In this document: piece after piece, positions 6,004-48,087 of the stretch
How positions within the stretch are numbered: the first letter of the stretch is position 1
Layout of the letters: each line of letters opens with the position of its first letter
Source: a virus
Reading direction: 5' to 3' (one strand)
Length of the DNA stretch: 49,229 nucleotides
IMG/VR virus record: IMGVR_UViG_3300037168_000099
Coordinates: 1 to 49,229 of that record
Translations under genes and position numbers: made by a program
Notes under the pieces: model-generated
What the model saw: only the letters and a program-made list of their open reading frames with translations
Databases searched by the model: none
What the model was told of the DNA's origin: nothing

Positions 6004-6204
6004 TCATCCTTTTTTGGTCGGACCGTCGGCCCACTCGATGAATTGCTCTTTGGGGAATCGATACGGACCGTGATCGGTGAACCGCTTGAATGGCGGCCGG
6101 TTCTTCTTGCGCTTGATGTAGTTGTAGATCGTGTCGCGATGGACGCCGATGTAGGCGGCAGCCTCTTTCAGGGTGAACCAGTTGCGATCATGGCCGTTTT
6201 TCAT
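6004..6204 (-). CDS. Helix-turn-helix DNA-binding protein, excisionase-like
   Basis: This 66-residue protein carries a MerR/excisionase-type winged helix (HTH_17 family): WFTLKEAAAYIGVHRDTIYN followed by a basic recognition segment YIKRKKNRPPF and the wing FTDHGPYRFPKEQFIEW. Such proteins bind DNA in gene regulation or direct site-specific excision. No integrase is visible here, so a regulatory role is more likely. The ATG at 6204 is preferred over an upstream TTG. The -10 element of the proposed promoter lies only about nine bases before this ATG, so the transcript may be almost leaderless. Confidence 0.85.
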   Translation of the reverse strand: MKNGHDRNWFTLKEAAAYIGVHRDTIYNYIKRKKNRPPFKRFTDHGPYRFPKEQFIEWADGPTKKG

Positions 6205-8834: not shown

Positions 8835-10004
8835 ATGCCAGGTAATCTTTCAGGTCCCGGGGTAGGTCTTCCGATCCCGCAGAACCTCTACCCGTCGCAG
8901 CTTCAGAACGCGCCTGCCGATCCGTCGAGCAACCGGCTTGGACTGGCGCCGGGCGAGGTTTTCGTCATCCCCGCCGGTGACTGGATCATCAGCCTCGGGA
9001 TGTACAACGTCCTCCAGTTTCTGGATCCGGTTAACAACACGTGGGCGTTCGGTTCGGGCTCGGCGCTCAATCGCGGCGCAATTCTGGTGTCGGCCGACGG
9101 CTTTACCGTCCGCGTCGCCAACCTGACTGGCTGTGTGGTCAGCGCCTCGGTGGCCAACGCCGGCACCGGTTACGTGCAGGCAACCACCACCATTACCGCC
9201 GTCGGCACCTTCGCCGGTGCGGCTCCGACCCTGCTGCCGATCGTCGGTGGGGCGCTCAACATTTCCGGCGGCACGCTGGTCGCCAACGGTGCCGGCTATG
9301 GTGTGGCGCCGATTGTCATGATCCCGCCGCCCCCGCAGGCGCAGAACAACGCCAACGGCGTCGGCGGTATCCAGGCATCGGCGATCGCGGTGATCGCCAG
9401 CGGCACGGTGTCCTCGGTGTCGATCACCAACCCGGGCGCCGGCTACCCGACCGCTCCGGTCGCGGTGATCGTGCCCTCGCCGTTCGATCCCAACCTCTCG
9501 GTCGGCATCACCAATGCCACCGTGGCCTTCACGCTGGCTTCTGCCGGTCTGATCATGGGCGCGCTGGTCACCAACCACGGCTCGCCGCTCAACAACGGCT
9601 CGCTGGCGTCGATCACGCTGACGGTCGGTGGTGCGGGCAATTCCGGGTCGCTGACGGCCAACGTCATGCAGACAGTGGTGTCGTCCTCGCTGAGCACCGC
9701 AGGGGTCGGGTACACCACGGCCATGATGACGACGGCGGGCGGCGGACCGGTTGCGGGTGCGATCGCCAACTCGCCGGAAGCCAGCTTCCTTGCGTGGCTG
9801 CCGCGCCCGGCGAACATCGTCTACGGCGCGTCGGTCAGTGTGGGCACCCCGGCGACCGTTTACGATGGCGGGCTGTTCCTCTCGGCGCCGACGATCGTAC
9901 AAATTCCCACGCCTTTCCCGGCTGCTGGCGCGTTCACGCTGGCCACGCCGACGAACGTCATGGGCAGCAAGTTCGACATCGCCATCATCCAGCCGGGACC
10001 GTAA
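8835..10004 (+). CDS. Beta-repeat structural protein, probable capsid decoration protein
   Basis: This 389-residue protein is rich in Gly, Ala, Val and Thr. It contains at least four copies of a module with the core G-x-G-Y followed by a strand: ANAGTGYVQATTTITA, VANGAGYGVAPIVMI, TNPGAGYPTAPVAVIVP and STAGVGYTTAMM. The N-terminus (VFVIPAGDWIISLGMYNVLQFLDP) and C-terminus are non-repetitive. It lies directly after the major capsid gene with an AGGAG site, so a decoration or head-stabilising role is likely. The same module appears in the connector at 11051-11995. Confidence 0.75.
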   Translation: MPGNLSGPGVGLPIPQNLYPSQLQNAPADPSSNRLGLAPGEVFVIPAGDWIISLGMYNVLQFLDPVNNTWAFGSGSALNRGAILVSADGFTVRVANLTGCVVSASVANAGTGYVQATTTITAVGTFAGAAPTLLPIVGGALNISGGTLVANGAGYGVAPIVMIPPPPQAQNNANGVGGIQASAIAVIASGTVSSVSITNPGAGYPTAPVAVIVPSPFDPNLSVGITNATVAFTLASAGLIMGALVTNHGSPLNNGSLASITLTVGGAGNSGSLTANVMQTVVSSSLSTAGVGYTTAMMTTAGGGPVAGAIANSPEASFLAWLPRPANIVYGASVSVGTPATVYDGGLFLSAPTIVQIPTPFPAAGAFTLATPTNVMGSKFDIAIIQPGP

Positions 10005-17051: not shown

Positions 17052-18941
17052 ATGGCCGACACCCAGACCCAAGACCCGCCCTCCGCCAGTTCTCCGTTCG
17101 ACGCGGGAGCGGCGCCCGTCGCTAACCTCGCAGGCTCCAGTGCATGGGGCTCATCGATCGCCTCGCTTGCCGGTAGCGGGGATGACAGAGAGATGTCCGG
17201 GCTGATCTCGGGCCTGCGCGACCTGCAGCGCAAGAAGCTGCAGAAGGACGACGAGATGACCGTCCAGATGAACGCCACCATGGCCAAGGACAAGGAGATT
17301 CGCGAGAAGGCGTTCGCACAAGAAGGCGTCGACATCGCCGAGATGCCGCAAAAGTGGGATGCGGACAAGGAGCATAAGAAGTTCGAGACCAACCCGATCG
17401 AGGGCTTCGGCTCGCTCGGCGGCATGTTCGCCATGGTCGCTTCCGCGTTCACCAAGGCGCCGATGGAGAACGCCATCAACGGCATGGCCGGTGCGATCAC
17501 CGCGATCAAGGACGGCAAGGAGCAGGACTACCAGCGCGCGTTCACCGCGTTCAAGGAGAACGTCAAGCTCGCCGACCAGCGATTCAAGATGCAGCACGGA
17601 CTTTATACCGACGCGCTCAGCCTCGCCCAGACCGACATGGCGGCGATGGAAGCGAAGATGCGCAACGCCGCGGTGCGGTTTGGCGACCAGCACGTCCTGA
17701 TGCTGGCCGACCACGGCATGGTCAAGGAAATCTACGAGTTGCAGGAGGCCCGCGCCAAGGCGCACGAGCAGATGATGAAGTCGACGGAAGCTCTCACCGA
17801 GCACCGCATGCGGCAGGACGTCTACGACCTCATGACCAAGGAGATTCCGCAGGGCCTGCCGCCCGCGATCGCAGCGGCGCACAAGCTGGCGGCGTGGAAC
17901 AAGGCGCATGACGTCAAGGACACCACGACGCCGGAGCAGGCGGTCGCCGGCCGGCTCATCAACGAGAACCCGCAGGCGACGGGCCAGGAACTGGCCCAGA
18001 TATTCAGGGACAACGGCGTCCAGGTCGGTCGGCAGCCCGAGCGCGACCGCCTCATGGAGGAGCGCATCTACTACGAGGAGCAGGCTATCCGTGACCGCGA
18101 GGGGCGCGAGCCGACTGCTGCCGAGAGCGCCAAGATCCGGGAGAGTGCTGCGGCCATGGGGCGAGCGCCGACGGGCACTGGTCCGGGCGGCGTCACCAAC
18201 ATGGGCAAGGAGCAGGCGCTGGCGGTCGAGGAGGAGATGAAGAAGGACCCCAAGCTGTCGCGCGTGGAAGCCATCGAGAAGGTCAAGCGCGCGGCTTCCA
18301 CCCCGTCAGGCAACCGCCTCGACGATCTCTCGAGCAAGATCGACCAGACCGACAACATCATCCGGGGCTCCGAGAAGCAGCTGGACTTCCTGCACACCTT
18401 CAAGGGCGGTGCCGGCCTGATGGGCAAGATCATGCGCGGCGAGGAAATCGCGTCCAACATCGTCGGCGCCGGCACCCAGTCGGAGCGCGTGGAGTTCAGG
18501 CGGCGGGTGCACGAGTTGCAGGAGATGGTGCCGCGCATCATCACCGACAGTAATGGGCGCCCGTTGAAGTCCGCGCAGGACAAGGTCGACGACTTCGTTG
18601 CCGGTCTCAACGCGGGCGACACCGGACCCAACACCATCAGGGCCTATGAAGAACTCATCGCGGAGATGCAGAAGCGCCAGGCCGACTATCGCGCACGGCG
18701 GAGCGGCGGCTTCAGCCCCGATGCCGCATCGTCCGGGGCCGGCGCACCGGCGGCGACCGCGAAGACGGAAGGCAAGCGGCCTCTGTGGGAAAGCGCGCCG
18801 ATTGATTCTGGAGCAGGCGGAAAACAGTCCAGCGCTTCCGAGGCGCCGCCGGTCGAAGGTGCCCGGAAGGCGCCCGACGGTAGCTGGTACGTGAACGACC
18901 CTGACCGCCCCGGAAAATTTCTGAAGGTAATGGTATCATAG
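17052..18941 (+). CDS. Internal virion (ejection) protein, coiled-coil rich
   Basis: This 629-residue protein starts directly after the previous stop. It is mostly helical and highly charged, with long heptad-like stretches (residues about 55-100 and 165-260). One weakly hydrophobic Gly/Ala stretch at about residues 118-155 (SLGGMFAMVASAFTKAPMEN) could enter a membrane. The C-terminus is Ala/Ser-rich and ends in a compact Trp-containing segment (WYVNDPDRPGKFLKVMVS). Internal core proteins of short-tailed phages form the channel that carries DNA across the periplasm, and this is a likely member by context. Confidence 0.7.
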   Translation: MADTQTQDPPSASSPFDAGAAPVANLAGSSAWGSSIASLAGSGDDREMSGLISGLRDLQRKKLQKDDEMTVQMNATMAKDKEIREKAFAQEGVDIAEMPQKWDADKEHKKFETNPIEGFGSLGGMFAMVASAFTKAPMENAINGMAGAITAIKDGKEQDYQRAFTAFKENVKLADQRFKMQHGLYTDALSLAQTDMAAMEAKMRNAAVRFGDQHVLMLADHGMVKEIYELQEARAKAHEQMMKSTEALTEHRMRQDVYDLMTKEIPQGLPPAIAAAHKLAAWNKAHDVKDTTTPEQAVAGRLINENPQATGQELAQIFRDNGVQVGRQPERDRLMEERIYYEEQAIRDREGREPTAAESAKIRESAAAMGRAPTGTGPGGVTNMGKEQALAVEEEMKKDPKLSRVEAIEKVKRAASTPSGNRLDDLSSKIDQTDNIIRGSEKQLDFLHTFKGGAGLMGKIMRGEEIASNIVGAGTQSERVEFRRRVHELQEMVPRIITDSNGRPLKSAQDKVDDFVAGLNAGDTGPNTIRAYEELIAEMQKRQADYRARRSGGFSPDAASSGAGAPAATAKTEGKRPLWESAPIDSGAGGKQSSASEAPPVEGARKAPDGSWYVNDPDRPGKFLKVMVS

Positions 18942-28721: not shown

Positions 28722-29054
28722 ATGAGTTTCAATTGGTCTTCCGTAGGATCCACCCTCTCCGGCCTTACCAGCGCGTTGTCGGCGGCCGGCGTCTCCTCAT
28801 CCTCGATGGGAAGCATTCTCAATGAAATAGGCCTGTCCTCGAATCCCAATCAATCCGCCGAGATCGCGATTTGCGGCCAAATACTGACCGCAATGGGGAA
28901 TCCTCAATTGACGGAAGCGCTCGCCATGAAGCTGGCGACTGAACAGGGCATCCCGCCGTCGGCAGCAGCGCTCGCCATGACCCTGGGCCAACCCGGGGTG
29001 AACACCGCGCAGGTCGTTATCGAAATCGAGCAGTTGATAAAACAGGGGGGTTGA
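28722..29054 (+). CDS. Small unknown protein, 110 aa
   Basis: This 110-residue protein starts with a Ser-rich segment (MSFNWSSVGSTLSGLTSALS), followed by short helices ending in VVIEIEQLIKQGG. AAAGGA lies before the ATG. No domain is recognised. It belongs to the late or lysis transcription unit by spacing. Confidence 0.6.
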   Translation: MSFNWSSVGSTLSGLTSALSAAGVSSSSMGSILNEIGLSSNPNQSAEIAICGQILTAMGNPQLTEALAMKLATEQGIPPSAAALAMTLGQPGVNTAQVVIEIEQLIKQGG

Positions 29055-39859: not shown

Positions 39860-39964
39860 TAGCAGAGTCGTAAAAAATTTGTTTTGATCGCGCGGCCCGT
39901 CAAATTGCGCTTGACAGCAAAGGCTTGCCGGAAGCAGTCTGCGCGCCTTGCGCCCGTTTCACCC

Positions 39965-40001
39965 AAGAAAAAGGCCGCCGGCGGGGGGATCGCCAGCGGC
40001 C
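39965..40001 (-). terminator. Hairpin with T-tract, minus-strand terminator candidate
   Basis: GGCCGC (39973-39978) pairs with GCGGCC (39996-40001). An inner GGCG pairs with CGCC around a seven-base loop, with one C-A mismatch between the stems. On the minus strand the hairpin is followed by TTTTTCTT (39972-39965). It could stop antisense transcripts from the right before they enter the replication operon. It also sits in the leader of the plus-strand primase gene. Confidence 0.5.
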
Positions 40002-40081
40002 CGGTCGAGGGGGCGCCCAAGGGGATTAAACGCCATGGCCTTCATAGCATCGGCGACCGCGCGCGGCAAGAAGCTGGCGAC

Positions 40082-42382
40082 GTGAACGTAAAGCTTGAAG
40101 CGGCGTTGGCATATGGCCGCATGGGCTGGCGGATTTTCCCCTGCCACTCGGTCGTGCAGACCGCGACGGGCCCGGCGTGCAGCTGCGGCAAAGCCTCCTG
40201 CAAATCGCCAGCTAAACATCCGAGAACAAAAAGAGGACTGCTCGATGCGACCGACGACGAATCAACCATCCGCCGGTACTGGACCCGCTGGCCCGACGCC
40301 AACATCGCACTCGCGACCGGATCCGGTCTCGCCGTGTTCGACATCGACGGGCCGGAAGGTGCGGAGGAATTCAAGCAGCTGGTGGCGACTCACGGGCCTG
40401 TGCCTGCGACGCTGGCGGCTGCCACGGGACGCGGTCTCCATCTTGTATTTGCAACGCAACCTGGAAGCCCTAGCGTTCGGTCTTCGGCAATGGGTAAGGT
40501 CCACGTTCGAGGCGAAGGGGGCTACATCATCGTCGCCCCCTCCGACCACATCACCGGGCGAAAATATCAATGGGTGAACAGGCTTGCGCCGGCACCTTTA
40601 CCTGGTTGGTTAAGACAATGGGGGGCCGGGTATAATGTTACTGCGAATGCCGTACAAGCCGTGCAGAATAGTCCCTTTGAAGCTCTCGGTGCGCTACCGG
40701 CCTATTTGCAAATACGTCAGCAGAGCCAACCCGATGTCACGAAAAGTGCAAGCGACGCATTACGTACAGTATGGAGTCCGGCCGAAGAGGCGCGGCTGAT
40801 CTCGGCGCTGGCGGCGATTCCGGCTAACCAGTACGACTCCTGGTACCAGATAGGCATGGCGCTGCATGGACTTGGCTGGGACCGCTCAGATGGAACTTCA
40901 ATAGGCTTTGACATCTGGGACCAGTGGAGCCAGACCTGCCCCGAGAAATACGCCCTCGGCGCCTGCGAAGCCAAGTGGCGATCGTTTGACCGGTCGGCGC
41001 GCGGGGAACTGACGCTCGGGACGATCTACCACCTGGCGCAACGCTCGGGGTGGAATGGAGGGGCCCCCGCGCCAATGGGCTGGGGTGAAGTGCAGGCCCC
41101 TCCGGTAAGCGCCGACCCACCTGCCGGCAACAGCGGGCACCTTAACGGCCACGCCAACGGGCATCAAGTGCTCCCGGTCGCCTTTGGCGGCCTCAAGCCC
41201 ATCACCTTCCCCGACACCAACGACAAGGGCCTGCCCCGGGCCACCATGACCAACGCCAAGGTCGCGGTCGCCGCGCTCGGGCTGGATTGCCGGTACGACC
41301 TGTTCCATAACCGGATGCTGGTCGGCGGCGAAGTCATTAACAAGTGGCATTCCAAGGAGTTGTCCGATCACGTGGTGACCATGCTGCGCAACATGATCCG
41401 TTACCGCTTCGGCTTCGATCCCGGCAAGCAGCATACTCAGGATGCCAGCGAGTCACTCGCCCTCGAGTTCCGGTTTGACCCGGTGCTGGACTACCTGGAC
41501 GGCCTGCGCTGGGACGGCCGGCCACGGCTCGACCGCTGGATGGTCGACTATCTCGGCGCCGACGACACCGAGCTGAACCGGGCGATCGGGCGCCTGTCGC
41601 TGCTCGCCGCGGTCCGCCGCGCGCGCCAGCCCGGAACCAAATTCGATCAAATTATTGTGCTCGAAGGGCGGCAGGGACAGGGCAAGAGCGAGGCGATCGA
41701 GATCCTGGCAGGCAAGGAAAACTTCTCCGATCAAAGCATCCTCGGCGTCGACGACCGCAAGCAGCAGGAGTTAACCGAAGGCGTGTGGCTGTATGAGATC
41801 GGCGAGCTCAACGGCATTCGCCGCACCGACATCGAGCACATCAAGGCTTTTGCCTCCCGCAAGGTTGACCGTGCCAGGCCGGCCTATGGGCGCTACACGG
41901 TCAGCCAGCCCCGCCGAACCGTGTTCTTTGCCAGCTGCAACAGAGACGATTACCTGCAGGACGACACCGGCAACCGCCGCTTTTGGCCGGTAGCGGTCCG
42001 GTTTGCCGACCACGATGGCTTGCGGCGCGACCGCGACCAGCTATGGGCCGAGGCCAGCGCCCGCGAAGCCCGCGGCGAGTCGCACGTGCTCGAACAACGG
42101 CTATGGGCGGTGGCCGGCGAGGAGCAGGAGAAGCGGGTGGCGGCCGACAGCTGGGTGGAACTAATCCACCGCTACCTCAACATGCCCGACAAGCACCGGG
42201 ACGATGTCAGCATCGCCGACGTGCTGTGCGACAACCAGTTTATCGCCATGCGCCCGGACGCCATCGGCAAGTCCGAGGAGATCAAGGCCGGGCGGGTGAT
42301 GGCCGCGCTGAAGTTCGAGCGCTACCAGAAGCGCCTGGCCGACGGCACGCGGGTTTACCGCTACCGTCGGCCAAGGGACTGA
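40082..42382 (+). CDS. Primase-polymerase fused to VapE/VirE-type helicase
   Basis: This 766-residue protein runs from the GTG at 40082; the frame is open from TTG 39884, but the extra N-terminus is basic and overlaps a hairpin. Domains are Prim-Pol (residues about 1-190, LAVFDIDGPEG with the catalytic pair D87 and D89, and cysteines C33, C35 and C40 of a possible zinc knuckle), PriCT-2-like (about 235-320, YQIGMALHGLGWDRSDG), and VapE ATPase with Walker A EGRQGQGKS (about 528-535) and the NRRFWPV block. It would both prime and unwind DNA at the origin. It is transcribed away from the minus-strand replication operon. Confidence 0.9.
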   Translation: MNVKLEAALAYGRMGWRIFPCHSVVQTATGPACSCGKASCKSPAKHPRTKRGLLDATDDESTIRRYWTRWPDANIALATGSGLAVFDIDGPEGAEEFKQLVATHGPVPATLAAATGRGLHLVFATQPGSPSVRSSAMGKVHVRGEGGYIIVAPSDHITGRKYQWVNRLAPAPLPGWLRQWGAGYNVTANAVQAVQNSPFEALGALPAYLQIRQQSQPDVTKSASDALRTVWSPAEEARLISALAAIPANQYDSWYQIGMALHGLGWDRSDGTSIGFDIWDQWSQTCPEKYALGACEAKWRSFDRSARGELTLGTIYHLAQRSGWNGGAPAPMGWGEVQAPPVSADPPAGNSGHLNGHANGHQVLPVAFGGLKPITFPDTNDKGLPRATMTNAKVAVAALGLDCRYDLFHNRMLVGGEVINKWHSKELSDHVVTMLRNMIRYRFGFDPGKQHTQDASESLALEFRFDPVLDYLDGLRWDGRPRLDRWMVDYLGADDTELNRAIGRLSLLAAVRRARQPGTKFDQIIVLEGRQGQGKSEAIEILAGKENFSDQSILGVDDRKQQELTEGVWLYEIGELNGIRRTDIEHIKAFASRKVDRARPAYGRYTVSQPRRTVFFASCNRDDYLQDDTGNRRFWPVAVRFADHDGLRRDRDQLWAEASAREARGESHVLEQRLWAVAGEEQEKRVAADSWVELIHRYLNMPDKHRDDVSIADVLCDNQFIAMRPDAIGKSEEIKAGRVMAALKFERYQKRLADGTRVYRYRRPRD

Positions 42383-42448
42383 GAAGGGATCAGGGCGCCG
42401 AGGTGACCGGGGGCAGGCTGACCGGAGCGGGGGTCGGCGTCAGCGTAA

Positions 42449-42625
42449 TCAGCCCTCGTCGCGAAATTCACGCTGCTGGGCTATCGCAACCGGCGTTTTC
42501 GTTGGCCGGCGAACACGCCGCCAGATCGCAACGGCGATGAGATAGGCGACATAAATCGCGCCGGACACTGCCAAGACCACGACCGTGCCGGCGACGATCG
42601 GCGAGACGATGACTAGACCCTGCAT
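42449..42625 (-). CDS. Single-span membrane protein, 58 aa
   Basis: The ATG at 42625 has GGAG six bases upstream. The frame also opens at 42688, but that ATG abuts a hairpin and has no ribosome site. Residues about 4-34 are hydrophobic (VIVSPIVAGTVVVLAVSGAI, then YVAYLIAVAIW), followed by a basic tail RRVRRPTKTP. The topology suggests a small inner-membrane protein with the tail in the cytoplasm. It is the last gene of the minus-strand accessory block. Confidence 0.65.
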   Translation of the reverse strand: MQGLVIVSPIVAGTVVVLAVSGAIYVAYLIAVAIWRRVRRPTKTPVAIAQQREFRDEG

Positions 42626-42688
42626 TTCATTCTCCAATGCTTTGCCGAGGTCGTCGCTGTGGCGCTCGGCGGGTTCTTTCCACGGCAT

Positions 42689-42722
42689 TAGGGGGTTCTC
42701 GGGTGTGAGCGAGAACCCCCTA
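42689..42722. repeat. Perfect 12-bp inverted repeat between two minus-strand genes
   Basis: TAGGGGGTTCTC (42689-42700) is matched by GAGAACCCCCTA (42711-42722) around a ten-base spacer. On the minus strand it lies between the methyltransferase stop (42743) and the membrane-protein start. No U-tract follows on the minus strand; on the plus strand TTTT lies about eight bases on. It could be a transcription terminator, an RNA-processing hairpin or an operator. Confidence 0.6.
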
Positions 42723-42742: not shown

Positions 42743-43246
42743 CTATAGCCGCAAGAACTGCCCTTTGATGCTGCAGGCTTCGAGGATATCGGCATCGGCC
42801 GAGCCGTAGGCGACCAGCACCGAGGGGGCGCCGGCATTGGCGCCGGCTTGTTGCCCATCGACGTAGTGAAAATAGAGCCGTCCGCGCAGGAACAGCACCG
42901 CGGCGGCGCGGTTCCACACGGTTTCGAAAAACAAATCGGTCTCAGTGCGGGCGAAGATCAGCGCCGTTCCCTGGTTGTGCAGCGCCATGCGTTTCATCCA
43001 CGGGCCGACGATCGGCGGGGGACCGTAAGGCGGATTCAAGAACACGCGACCGCGCCACGGCTGCAGCAAGCCGTTGTCGGTGGACGTGTAGTGCCTGGCA
43101 GCCGTCGGCCACGGGCGCACGATCGGCGCGCACGGGTCGAGATCGAACGGGCCAAGCGCCGCCAACACGCTCGGCGGCGTCAGCCATTCGTCGTTCTTCA
43201 TGGCGGCCGACTGATGGCCGCCCATGCCGGCAACGCGCCTGCTCAT
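42743..43246 (-). CDS. DNA N6-adenine methyltransferase (phage Dam family)
   Basis: This 167-residue protein has the phage Dam signature: GGHQSA, DEWLTPPSVLAALGPFDLDP with the SAM-binding DPC, HYTSTDNGLLQPWRGRVFLN and the catalytic NPPYG. Such enzymes methylate adenine, often in GATC, and protect phage DNA from restriction or mark it for replication. The longer start at 43246 is kept because GGHQSA is typical of the family. It overlaps the preceding 44-residue gene by four bases. Confidence 0.9.
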   Translation of the reverse strand: MSRRVAGMGGHQSAAMKNDEWLTPPSVLAALGPFDLDPCAPIVRPWPTAARHYTSTDNGLLQPWRGRVFLNPPYGPPPIVGPWMKRMALHNQGTALIFARTETDLFFETVWNRAAAVLFLRGRLYFHYVDGQQAGANAGAPSVLVAYGSADADILEACSIKGQFLRL

Positions 43247-46050: not shown

Positions 46051-46419
46051 CTATTCAGTTTCCTCCCCTTCTGTTTCACGCTCATCCGGCCAATCAAACC
46101 CGTCGGTTTCCTCGTTGTACTCCATGCCGTGCGGGATAAGCCAGCAATCGCCGTTTTGATAGACGCTGTACTTGACGCCATTGTCATCGGTTACGGTCGC
46201 GGTTTGCTCCACATCGGACCACGTGTCCCAATACGCCTCATTGCAGACGCAAACGCCGTTCTCATCCTCATAATCCGGGCCGCGTTCCAAAATCGCCCAG
46301 TCCTCATCCGATACGCCGCTGACACTCTTGGCGCGGTCGCTGAATGATTTGGCGAAGTCTCGCGGGATGTAAACGCCGCGCGCGTCCGAAAGCCAAAGTA
46401 GCATGCCGGGTCTGGGCAT
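46051..46419 (-). CDS. Unknown accessory protein, 122 aa, first gene of the block
   Basis: GAGGGG lies just before the ATG at 46419. The protein starts MLLWLSDARGVYIPRDFAKS and later has CVCNEAYWDTWSDVEQTA and YSVYQNGDCWLIPHGMEYNE, then a very acidic tail. Proteins with the same LWLSDARGIYIPRDFA opening occur in many phages, usually as the first gene of an early block; their function is unknown. Confidence 0.7.
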   Translation of the reverse strand: MPRPGMLLWLSDARGVYIPRDFAKSFSDRAKSVSGVSDEDWAILERGPDYEDENGVCVCNEAYWDTWSDVEQTATVTDDNGVKYSVYQNGDCWLIPHGMEYNEETDGFDWPDERETEGEETE

Positions 46420-46484: not shown

Positions 46485-46813
46485 TATCACGTTTTTGTGA
46501 TTATAAGCGGCCTGGTCGGTGCCGATTTGCGACATGGTGCCACGGTGACAGCATGGTGACGCAAGCTAGCCTACTCTTGCAACCATTGTCACCATGTCAC
46601 CATATGTCATCATATAAATGTATAGAGAGGTAAGAGGGAATAGAGGAGTAGAGACATATAGCGTATATAATGCATAGAGTATTCCCTAGGTATGGGGACA
46701 TTGTATGGTGACATGGTGCCAATGGTGACATTGTTGATATCGTTAAGCTTTTCGGTTTGGCATATGGTGACAGACATGGTGACATGGTGCCAATATCACG
46801 CGTTTGTGACTAT
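46485..46813. repeat. Iteron-like array, candidate replication origin
   Basis: Thirteen copies of a 9-bp motif related to ATGGTGACA lie here. Direct copies start at 46534, 46542, 46553, 46692, 46705, 46713, 46722, 46764, 46776 and 46784; inverted copies (TGTCACCAT type) start at 46587, 46595 and 46605. A 19-bp compound unit ATGGTGACATGGTGCCAAT occurs exactly at 46705 and 46776. The clusters flank an AT-rich, purine-rich stretch (46614-46690). Two 20-bp elements, TATCACGTTTTTGTGATTAT (46485-46504) and TATCACGCGTTTGTGACTAT (46794-46813), bracket the array. Iterons beside an AT-rich stretch in a non-coding divergent region fit an origin; multi-site operator control is the alternative. Confidence 0.7.
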
Positions 46814-46856: not shown

Positions 46857-46891
46857 TTGGTATCCCAATATAGGGAGTATTGGGATACCAA
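46857..46891. repeat. Perfect 14-bp inverted repeat
   Basis: TTGGTATCCCAATA (46857-46870) and its exact complement TATTGGGATACCAA (46878-46891) are separated by TAGGGAG. The element lies between the iteron array and the first plus-strand gene. No T-tract follows on either strand. It may be an operator, a cruciform, or a primase loading site. Confidence 0.7.
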
Positions 46892-46988: not shown

Positions 46989-47162
46989 ATGCAAGCGAGA
47001 ACGCCGGATGAATGCGCGAATCACATGATAGTGCGCTACGGTACCAGCAACGCTCCCAAGCACGTCGCGGACGCGATACAAAACAATCGCGACAATTCGC
47101 AGGCGCTGTTGTACTGGCAAGCCGTCGACCGCGCGCTGATTCTGCTATTGCGGGACGTTTAG
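46989..47162 (+). CDS. Small unknown protein, 57 aa, first plus-strand gene after the origin
   Basis: GGAGG lies eight bases before the ATG at 46989; the frame is open from 46965, but that start lacks a good site. The protein is helical (DECANHMIVRYGTSNAPKHV, then NNRDNSQALLYWQAVDRALI). It lies next to the iterons and might be an initiator accessory or regulator. Its function is unknown. Confidence 0.6.
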   Translation: MQARTPDECANHMIVRYGTSNAPKHVADAIQNNRDNSQALLYWQAVDRALILLLRDV

Positions 47163-47319
47163 CTAAGGTTTAGGGCGAGCTCGCCACTTCGCCAGATTGA
47201 GCGCTCCGGCTTTCAGGCCGGGACGTTCTTTCTCCTATCAAATGTTTGTGATGGGATTGACTATCGGTATGAAATGCATAATTGTGTGTTTGGTTTTAAC
47301 GCGCACAAGGGGAAACGAA

Positions 47320-47595: not shown

Positions 47596-47789
47596 AAGTC
47601 CCTCGCATTACCTGTTGCTGGTGCGGGACCCGAATTGAACCGAACGCGCCGCGTATGCGCCTGCATGAATCGGCGGATACGCGGTGCATTACAAAATGCT
47701 TGGCAACGTTCCATCCGGAGTGTGGGGACGCTTTGCTTGATTATTGCGAGCGCAGGGTTAAACGCAAAGCGGTTACCGGCGATTTTTAG
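47583..47789 (+). CDS. Small zinc-finger protein, 68 aa
   Basis: The ATG at 47583 overlaps the previous gene. Cysteines in TCCWCG and RCITKC, then HPECGD and a late Cys, form a likely zinc-binding fold. The C-terminus is basic (RRVKRKAVTGDF). It may bind nucleic acid or a host protein. It overlaps the convergent minus-strand gene by 17 bp. Confidence 0.6.
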   Translation: MPRLKVPRITCCWCGTRIEPNAPRMRLHESADTRCITKCLATFHPECGDALLDYCERRVKRKAVTGDF

Positions 47790-48087
47790 TCGCGTGATAC
47801 CTGCGGAGATTGAGAGCGCCAGCCGAGAGGCCTAGGCGCTCTTTTTCGTTGCGCGCCTCGTTGGCGACCTTGGCGAGCTCGTTGGCGCGGGCTTGGATCT
47901 TGTCGGCTAATAGCTGCAGTGCCCATCGGGGAGGCTGGCGCCGTCCGGCACGCCAATTCAGCACTGCGGCGCGTTTAGCTCTGCCGTCCAGCAAGCGCAC
48001 GATTGCGCGGCCGCCAGCGCCAGGATGTAGCGCGTCGACGGCGCAAGAAAACACGGTTACAGGTTTCGAATCCAAATTTGGTTCCAT
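47773..48087 (-). CDS. Putative helix-turn-helix regulator on the minus strand
   Basis: This 104-residue protein has the core AGGRAIVRLLDGRAKRAAVL, then NWRAGRRQPPRWALQLLADK, an HTH outline common in phages (often annotated as a small regulator). It is the only minus-strand gene in this part and lies opposite the late-operon start. Its ATG has no clear ribosome site. It may repress the plus-strand operon that starts past 48294, and repeated GTCGAC/AGGTCG sites lie upstream. Confidence 0.6.
   Translation of the reverse strand: MEPNLDSKPVTVFSCAVDALHPGAGGRAIVRLLDGRAKRAAVLNWRAGRRQPPRWALQLLADKIQARANELAKVANEARNEKERLGLSAGALNLRRYHATKNRR

Follow-up and report, generated by a model that had tools for sequence, protein, structure and literature searches.

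The repeat array at positions 46485 to 46813 of the viral record IMGVR_UViG_3300037168_000099 (49,229 bases; this whole stretch of DNA is called the window below) most probably represents a phage replication origin similar to ori1 of P4 and to the PICI origins, with the Prim-Pol/VapE primase-helicase of the same genome as the likely initiator. This reading is based on sequence comparisons and on a predicted protein fold. The first-pass annotation of this DNA had proposed an origin made up of iterons and an AT-rich stretch for unwinding, initiated by this protein or by a small gene at 46989. Its core is upheld by the conservation of the array, by a family-wide association of such arrays with primase-helicase genes, and by the co-variation of the iterons with the C-terminal domain of the encoded proteins in RecA-type relatives, while the small gene as initiator, the edge elements as parts of the origin, and a turning point of the GC skew were not supported.

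The array contains 13 sites of the ATGGTGACA type (at most one mismatch) between 46534 and 46792, ten of them on the plus strand and three on the minus strand, as had been counted in the annotation. Nine further sites are scattered over the rest of the 49-kb window, and the total of 22 compares with a mean of 7.3 in shuffled sequences. The most frequent 8-mer of the segment 46441–46840 occurs in 13 copies, as compared to not more than six in 1000 dinucleotide shuffles, and in two unbiased scans, no other repeat cluster of the window was as dense as the array. The exact repetition of a 19-bp compound unit (ATGGTGACATGGTGCCAAT; 46705–46723 and 46776–46794) and the AT-rich setting had also been described correctly, the array region being the most AT-rich part of the window. 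The elements of the array are arranged as follows:

46485–46504: left edge palindrome TATCAC-N6-GTGATT, operator-like
46534–46561, plus strand: left direct iterons ATGGTGCCA, ACGGTGACA, and ATGGTGACG, from the site scan
46587–46613, minus strand: three inverted iterons (ATGGTGACA twice, ATGATGACA once), from the site scan
46605–46704: central AT-rich (37% GC) and purine-rich (64%) stretch, candidate unwinding element, overlapping the last inverted iteron and the site at 46692
46692–46792, plus strand: right set, with seven direct iterons and both copies of the 19-bp compound unit
46731–46760, plus strand: core amid the right iterons, GTTGATATC..., containing GTTGATAT
46794–46813: right edge palindrome TATCAC-N6-GTGACT, operator-like

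The two edge elements are identical at 17 of 20 positions, as claimed before, and this match exceeds those of all 200 shuffles (maximum 15). TCAC-N6-GTGA occurs in exactly two exact copies in the window, which are those at the edges, and a near match is located at 47236. In the related loci L005, L006, L011, L014, and L015, the same palindrome additionally precedes the conserved small gene (47773–48087 in the window) by 210–285 bp, which suggests that the edge palindromes are repressor operators rather than iterons and does not support their assignment to the origin. A second palindrome, ATACAWTGTAT, is absent from the window, but L005, L006, and L011–L015 have it at several sites around their arrays. 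The operator-like flanks, the position between divergent genes, and the conserved small gene nearby would also agree with a regulatory array, in which the 9-bp sites are transcription-factor operators that silence or activate divergent early promoters while replication starts elsewhere. This explanation is unlikely, because the edges already carry palindromes, another type of site, as candidate operators and because the equivalent arrays of distant relatives are located directly behind the primase-helicase gene and have a sequence that tracks its C-terminal domain (see below).

Divergent transcription around the putative origin was found for the main ORFs, but not for the conserved small gene, which points back to the left:

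47773–48087, minus strand: conserved small gene of unassigned function, possible regulator, found close to the array in every close relative with good coverage

No family match was found for this gene, and a search with it gave no further relatives. For the small gene at 46989, neither conservation nor a relative was found, which does not support it as an alternative initiator. Relatives of the small genes at 46051, 46965, and 47320 were likewise absent from the loci that were collected, and a neighbouring 60-aa gene was sought in cultured phages and not found. A turning point of the GC skew at the array was not borne out, with the cumulative minimum at 28994 and the maximum at 6193, and a promoter scan gave no excess over shuffles. 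Just to the right of the array, at 46857–46891, there is a perfect inverted repeat with 14-bp arms around a 7-nt loop (TTGGTATCCCAATA / TATTGGGATACCAA).

Direct-repeat arrays are also typical of plasmid centromeres, and the array could be a partition site for the stable inheritance of a plasmid prophage. This possibility is extremely improbable, as there is no ParA/ParB-like match among the scanned proteins near the array, and two iteron sets flanking an AT-rich centre, together with the tie to a primase-helicase, suit an origin better. The record itself is probably incomplete, because close relatives are 62–65 kb long, and no end repeats were found in it. Searches of the window for DNA-level similarity to known phages and for Rfam and tRNA matches gave no hits, and scanning viral contigs for an exact 17-mer yielded three contigs of low GC content, none of which has an array of the window's motif.

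The protein proposed to initiate replication at the array is encoded together with its predicted iteron-reading domain at the following positions:

39884–42382, plus strand: Prim-Pol/PriCT_2/VapE primase-helicase, proposed initiator
42083–42379, plus strand: C-terminal winged-helix domain (residues 734–832), proposed iteron reader, as predicted and from co-variation in relatives

Residues 519–705 match 7pds_A by sequence (E=1e-36), and a VapE domain was found; 7pds is presumably a SaPI protein. The last 99 residues are predicted (AF2) to form a winged helix consisting of helix, helix, and β-hairpin, with a pLDDT of about 90 over approximately the last 60 residues. Solved winged-helix structures match this C-terminus at moderate Z, among them 7pds_B (PriRep1 with dsDNA; Z 6.5), whose C-terminal part aligns with it but does not stand out from generic winged helices with comparable Z. 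Because of the predicted fold and the matches to 7pds_B and 7pds_A, the VapE winged helix is the natural candidate for the reader of ATGGTGACA, as judged from the relatives. Unusually, 4152 bp separate vapE from the start of the array, which is located between divergent transcription units; no array was found directly behind vapE (42383–42700), and no second array was found in the window. The window also encodes a PolA-type polymerase and a SNF2-type helicase. Behind vapE, at 42743–43246 on the minus strand, a match to a DNA methyltransferase family (phrog_111) was found. A possible counter-defence protein has a close relative in L005 at 17866–18108.

As close relatives, the loci L005, L006, and L011–L015 were considered, whose primase-helicases are 58–64% identical to that of the window. 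A search for the array in these relatives, which had been recommended in the annotation, showed that it recurs with the same layout and at the same place, with a changed iteron (GGTGACA, GGGACA). The iterons are (C)CGGTGAC in L011, GTGGTGAC in L013 and L015, and AGTGGGAC in L005. In L005, L011, L013, and L015, the array is located 3.2–3.7 kb behind the primase-helicase gene and near the orthologue of the gene at 47773–48087; for the clade including the window, the distance from vapE is thus 3.2–4.2 kb, rather than the array following directly behind the gene. GTTGATAT between the right-hand iterons is common to the window, L005, L011, and L015. L012 is a near copy of L013 and ends before the small-gene orthologue, and in L006 and L014 the corresponding place is occupied by an AT-rich region whose iterons are only weakly recognisable and whose repeats are too weak for the detector. 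L005 and L011 differ in their iterons, whereas their recognition helices are almost the same. Compared to the window, the protein encoded at 9914–12193 in L005 is 34% identical in the Prim-Pol domain and 84% in the helicase domain, a divergence that is likely due to domain exchange.

In more distant relatives, such arrays are found at the primase-helicase gene itself. In L016, L017, L019, L032–L036, and L040, the distance from the stop codon of this gene to the beginning of the array ranges from −145 to +46 bp, and the domain make-up of the encoded proteins varies, with Prim-Pol or Toprim and with VapE or the RecA-like AAA_25. A further 80 viral loci were gathered by means of the RecA-type protein, of which 77 were usable, and 65% of these have at least six copies of one 8-mer within 250 bp behind the gene. 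The same criterion applied to 1.6% of 1735 other windows and to 1.1% of 94 low-ORF windows used as controls. In roughly a third of the RecA-type loci, such an array is missing behind the gene. Nine cultivated phages encoding a VapE or Prim-Pol relative were covered, of which five (PS3, APSE-1, Jess A, LWP01, and YeP5) have an array, and none was found behind the gene in BD26P5, H40/1, and BU2-2. Pseudomonas phage LPPA36 (L143) has 11 CTGTCCCA sites around 5280, a few hundred bases behind its VapE gene. In VapE plasmids, the array is clear in five of six, including the 9.9-kb pPSEST02, and weak in the sixth. In a positive control of the detector, P4 crr took the top rank, followed by ori1, which shared its place with two other windows. 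Tandem repeats of L014, L046, L058, and L059, whose units follow one another at one constant distance divisible by three, were set aside as probably coding. Beside the iterons, L005, L019, L045, and L144 have a TAACCCATTGATWT-like core in common, possibly a host-factor site; such cores of several distant arrays match the IHF consensus. An IHF site in the window was left aside, as its core has no TAACCCATTGATWT-like match.

Groups of similar primase domains allow the iterons to be related to individual parts of the protein. In L032, L033/L034, and L036/L040, the primase part is about 70–95% identical, while the last ~75 residues are 16–30% identical between the groups, and the iterons are the same within a group and different between groups. 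In 41 non-redundant loci, iteron sharing tracks C-terminal identity with other domains held constant (partial Mantel 0.354; 0 of 999 permutations), and its partial correlation with the primase part is −0.16; since the sequences are related by descent, these figures are indications and not exact probabilities. These are indications that in RecA-type relatives the iteron follows the C-terminal ~75 residues and not the primase domain. Conversely, the iterons could be template-recognition sites of the Prim-Pol domain, with the primase and not the C-terminal winged helix setting their sequence. The polymerase of NrS-1 requires an 8-nt template sequence (PMC7102993), and L005 pairs a divergent Prim-Pol domain with a divergent iteron. 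The group-specific iterons of L032–L040 despite the high primase identity and the negative correlation with the primase part render this explanation very unlikely, as does the fact that the NrS-1 genome has two copies of its site only (PMC7102993).

Assuming that the C-terminal winged helix is the reader, a few of its residues may determine the iteron. Loci with RD[T/S]R without a following QH have GTTGCA (24 loci), RDTRxQH is found with GGTGCA (4 loci), RDQR with GTAGCA (6 loci), and RDNR with GGAGCA (2 loci, which are near copies). This pattern fits 36 of 36 loci in four classes, near copies included, and needs an independent set, because it was first noticed and then counted in one data set. 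Sequence-profile homology between VapE-type and RecA-type C-termini was not significant and was at about the level of shuffled controls. With a slight preference, it is suggested that a recognition code is common to a broad class of phage and plasmid primase-helicases, by which a few winged-helix residues (those of RD-x-R and the one following Q) determine the iteron sequence, and that the window phages are a variant in which the origin has been moved from the initiator gene into the divergent control region. By such a code, the origin of an uncultivated phage would be predictable from protein sequence.

In the mechanism proposed for the window, copies of the Prim-Pol/PriCT_2/VapE protein would dock on the ATGGTGACA iterons through the C-terminal winged helix. 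The left set (three direct and three inverted iterons) and the right set (seven direct iterons) flank the AT-rich, purine-rich stretch, which would be melted by ring assembly on both sets. The helicase may then load itself at the melted stretch, the Prim-Pol domain would prime, and the PolA-type polymerase of the phage would subsequently extend. The TCAC-N6-GTGA palindromes at the edges would serve as operators by which a repressor controls the divergent promoters around the origin. Beyond the window, the results suggest that numerous tailed phages, as well as plasmids that encode VapE, have the same origin type and that it is linked to the C-terminal domain of the primase-helicase. If true, origins could be located directly in uncultivated phages, and a protein-DNA recognition code would be available for testing.

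The statement in the annotation that no phage origin with this motif is known was too strong, because the type-1 repeats of P4 ori1 (GGTGAACAG) are very similar to ATGGTGACA, and the resemblance includes the layout. P4 ori1 consists of three repeats in one direction and one inverted repeat, an AT-rich stretch, and two more repeats. Like the array of the window, it is located between divergent transcription units and away from the gene for its initiator alpha, and alpha and the window protein are both initiators of the primase-helicase class, a likeness at class level. P4 additionally has crr directly behind alpha, whereas the window has no such array behind vapE. In PICI origins, one of which has been plasmid-tested, two iteron sets flank an AT-rich region immediately 3' of rep (PMC6092414). 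The window resembles this SaPI/PICI pri-rep-ori arrangement in its two iteron sets around an AT-rich region and in its VapE-type helicase (7pds match), but its array is located 4.15 kb from vapE and belongs to a full-size tailed phage. The SCCmec helicase Cch2 was shown to bind short direct repeats through its C-terminal domain, and iteron binding by such a domain is cited for SaPI Rep as well (PMC7581432); Cch2 differs from the window protein in belonging to another helicase family and in having 5-nt iterons. NrS-1 also combines Prim-Pol and an AAA+ helicase in one phage protein and has a sequence-specific start, but at two single 8-nt sites and without an array (PMC7102993). Because the window array is not in the PICI position directly behind rep and P4 crr has no counterpart in the window, the array is regarded as a variant of these origins.
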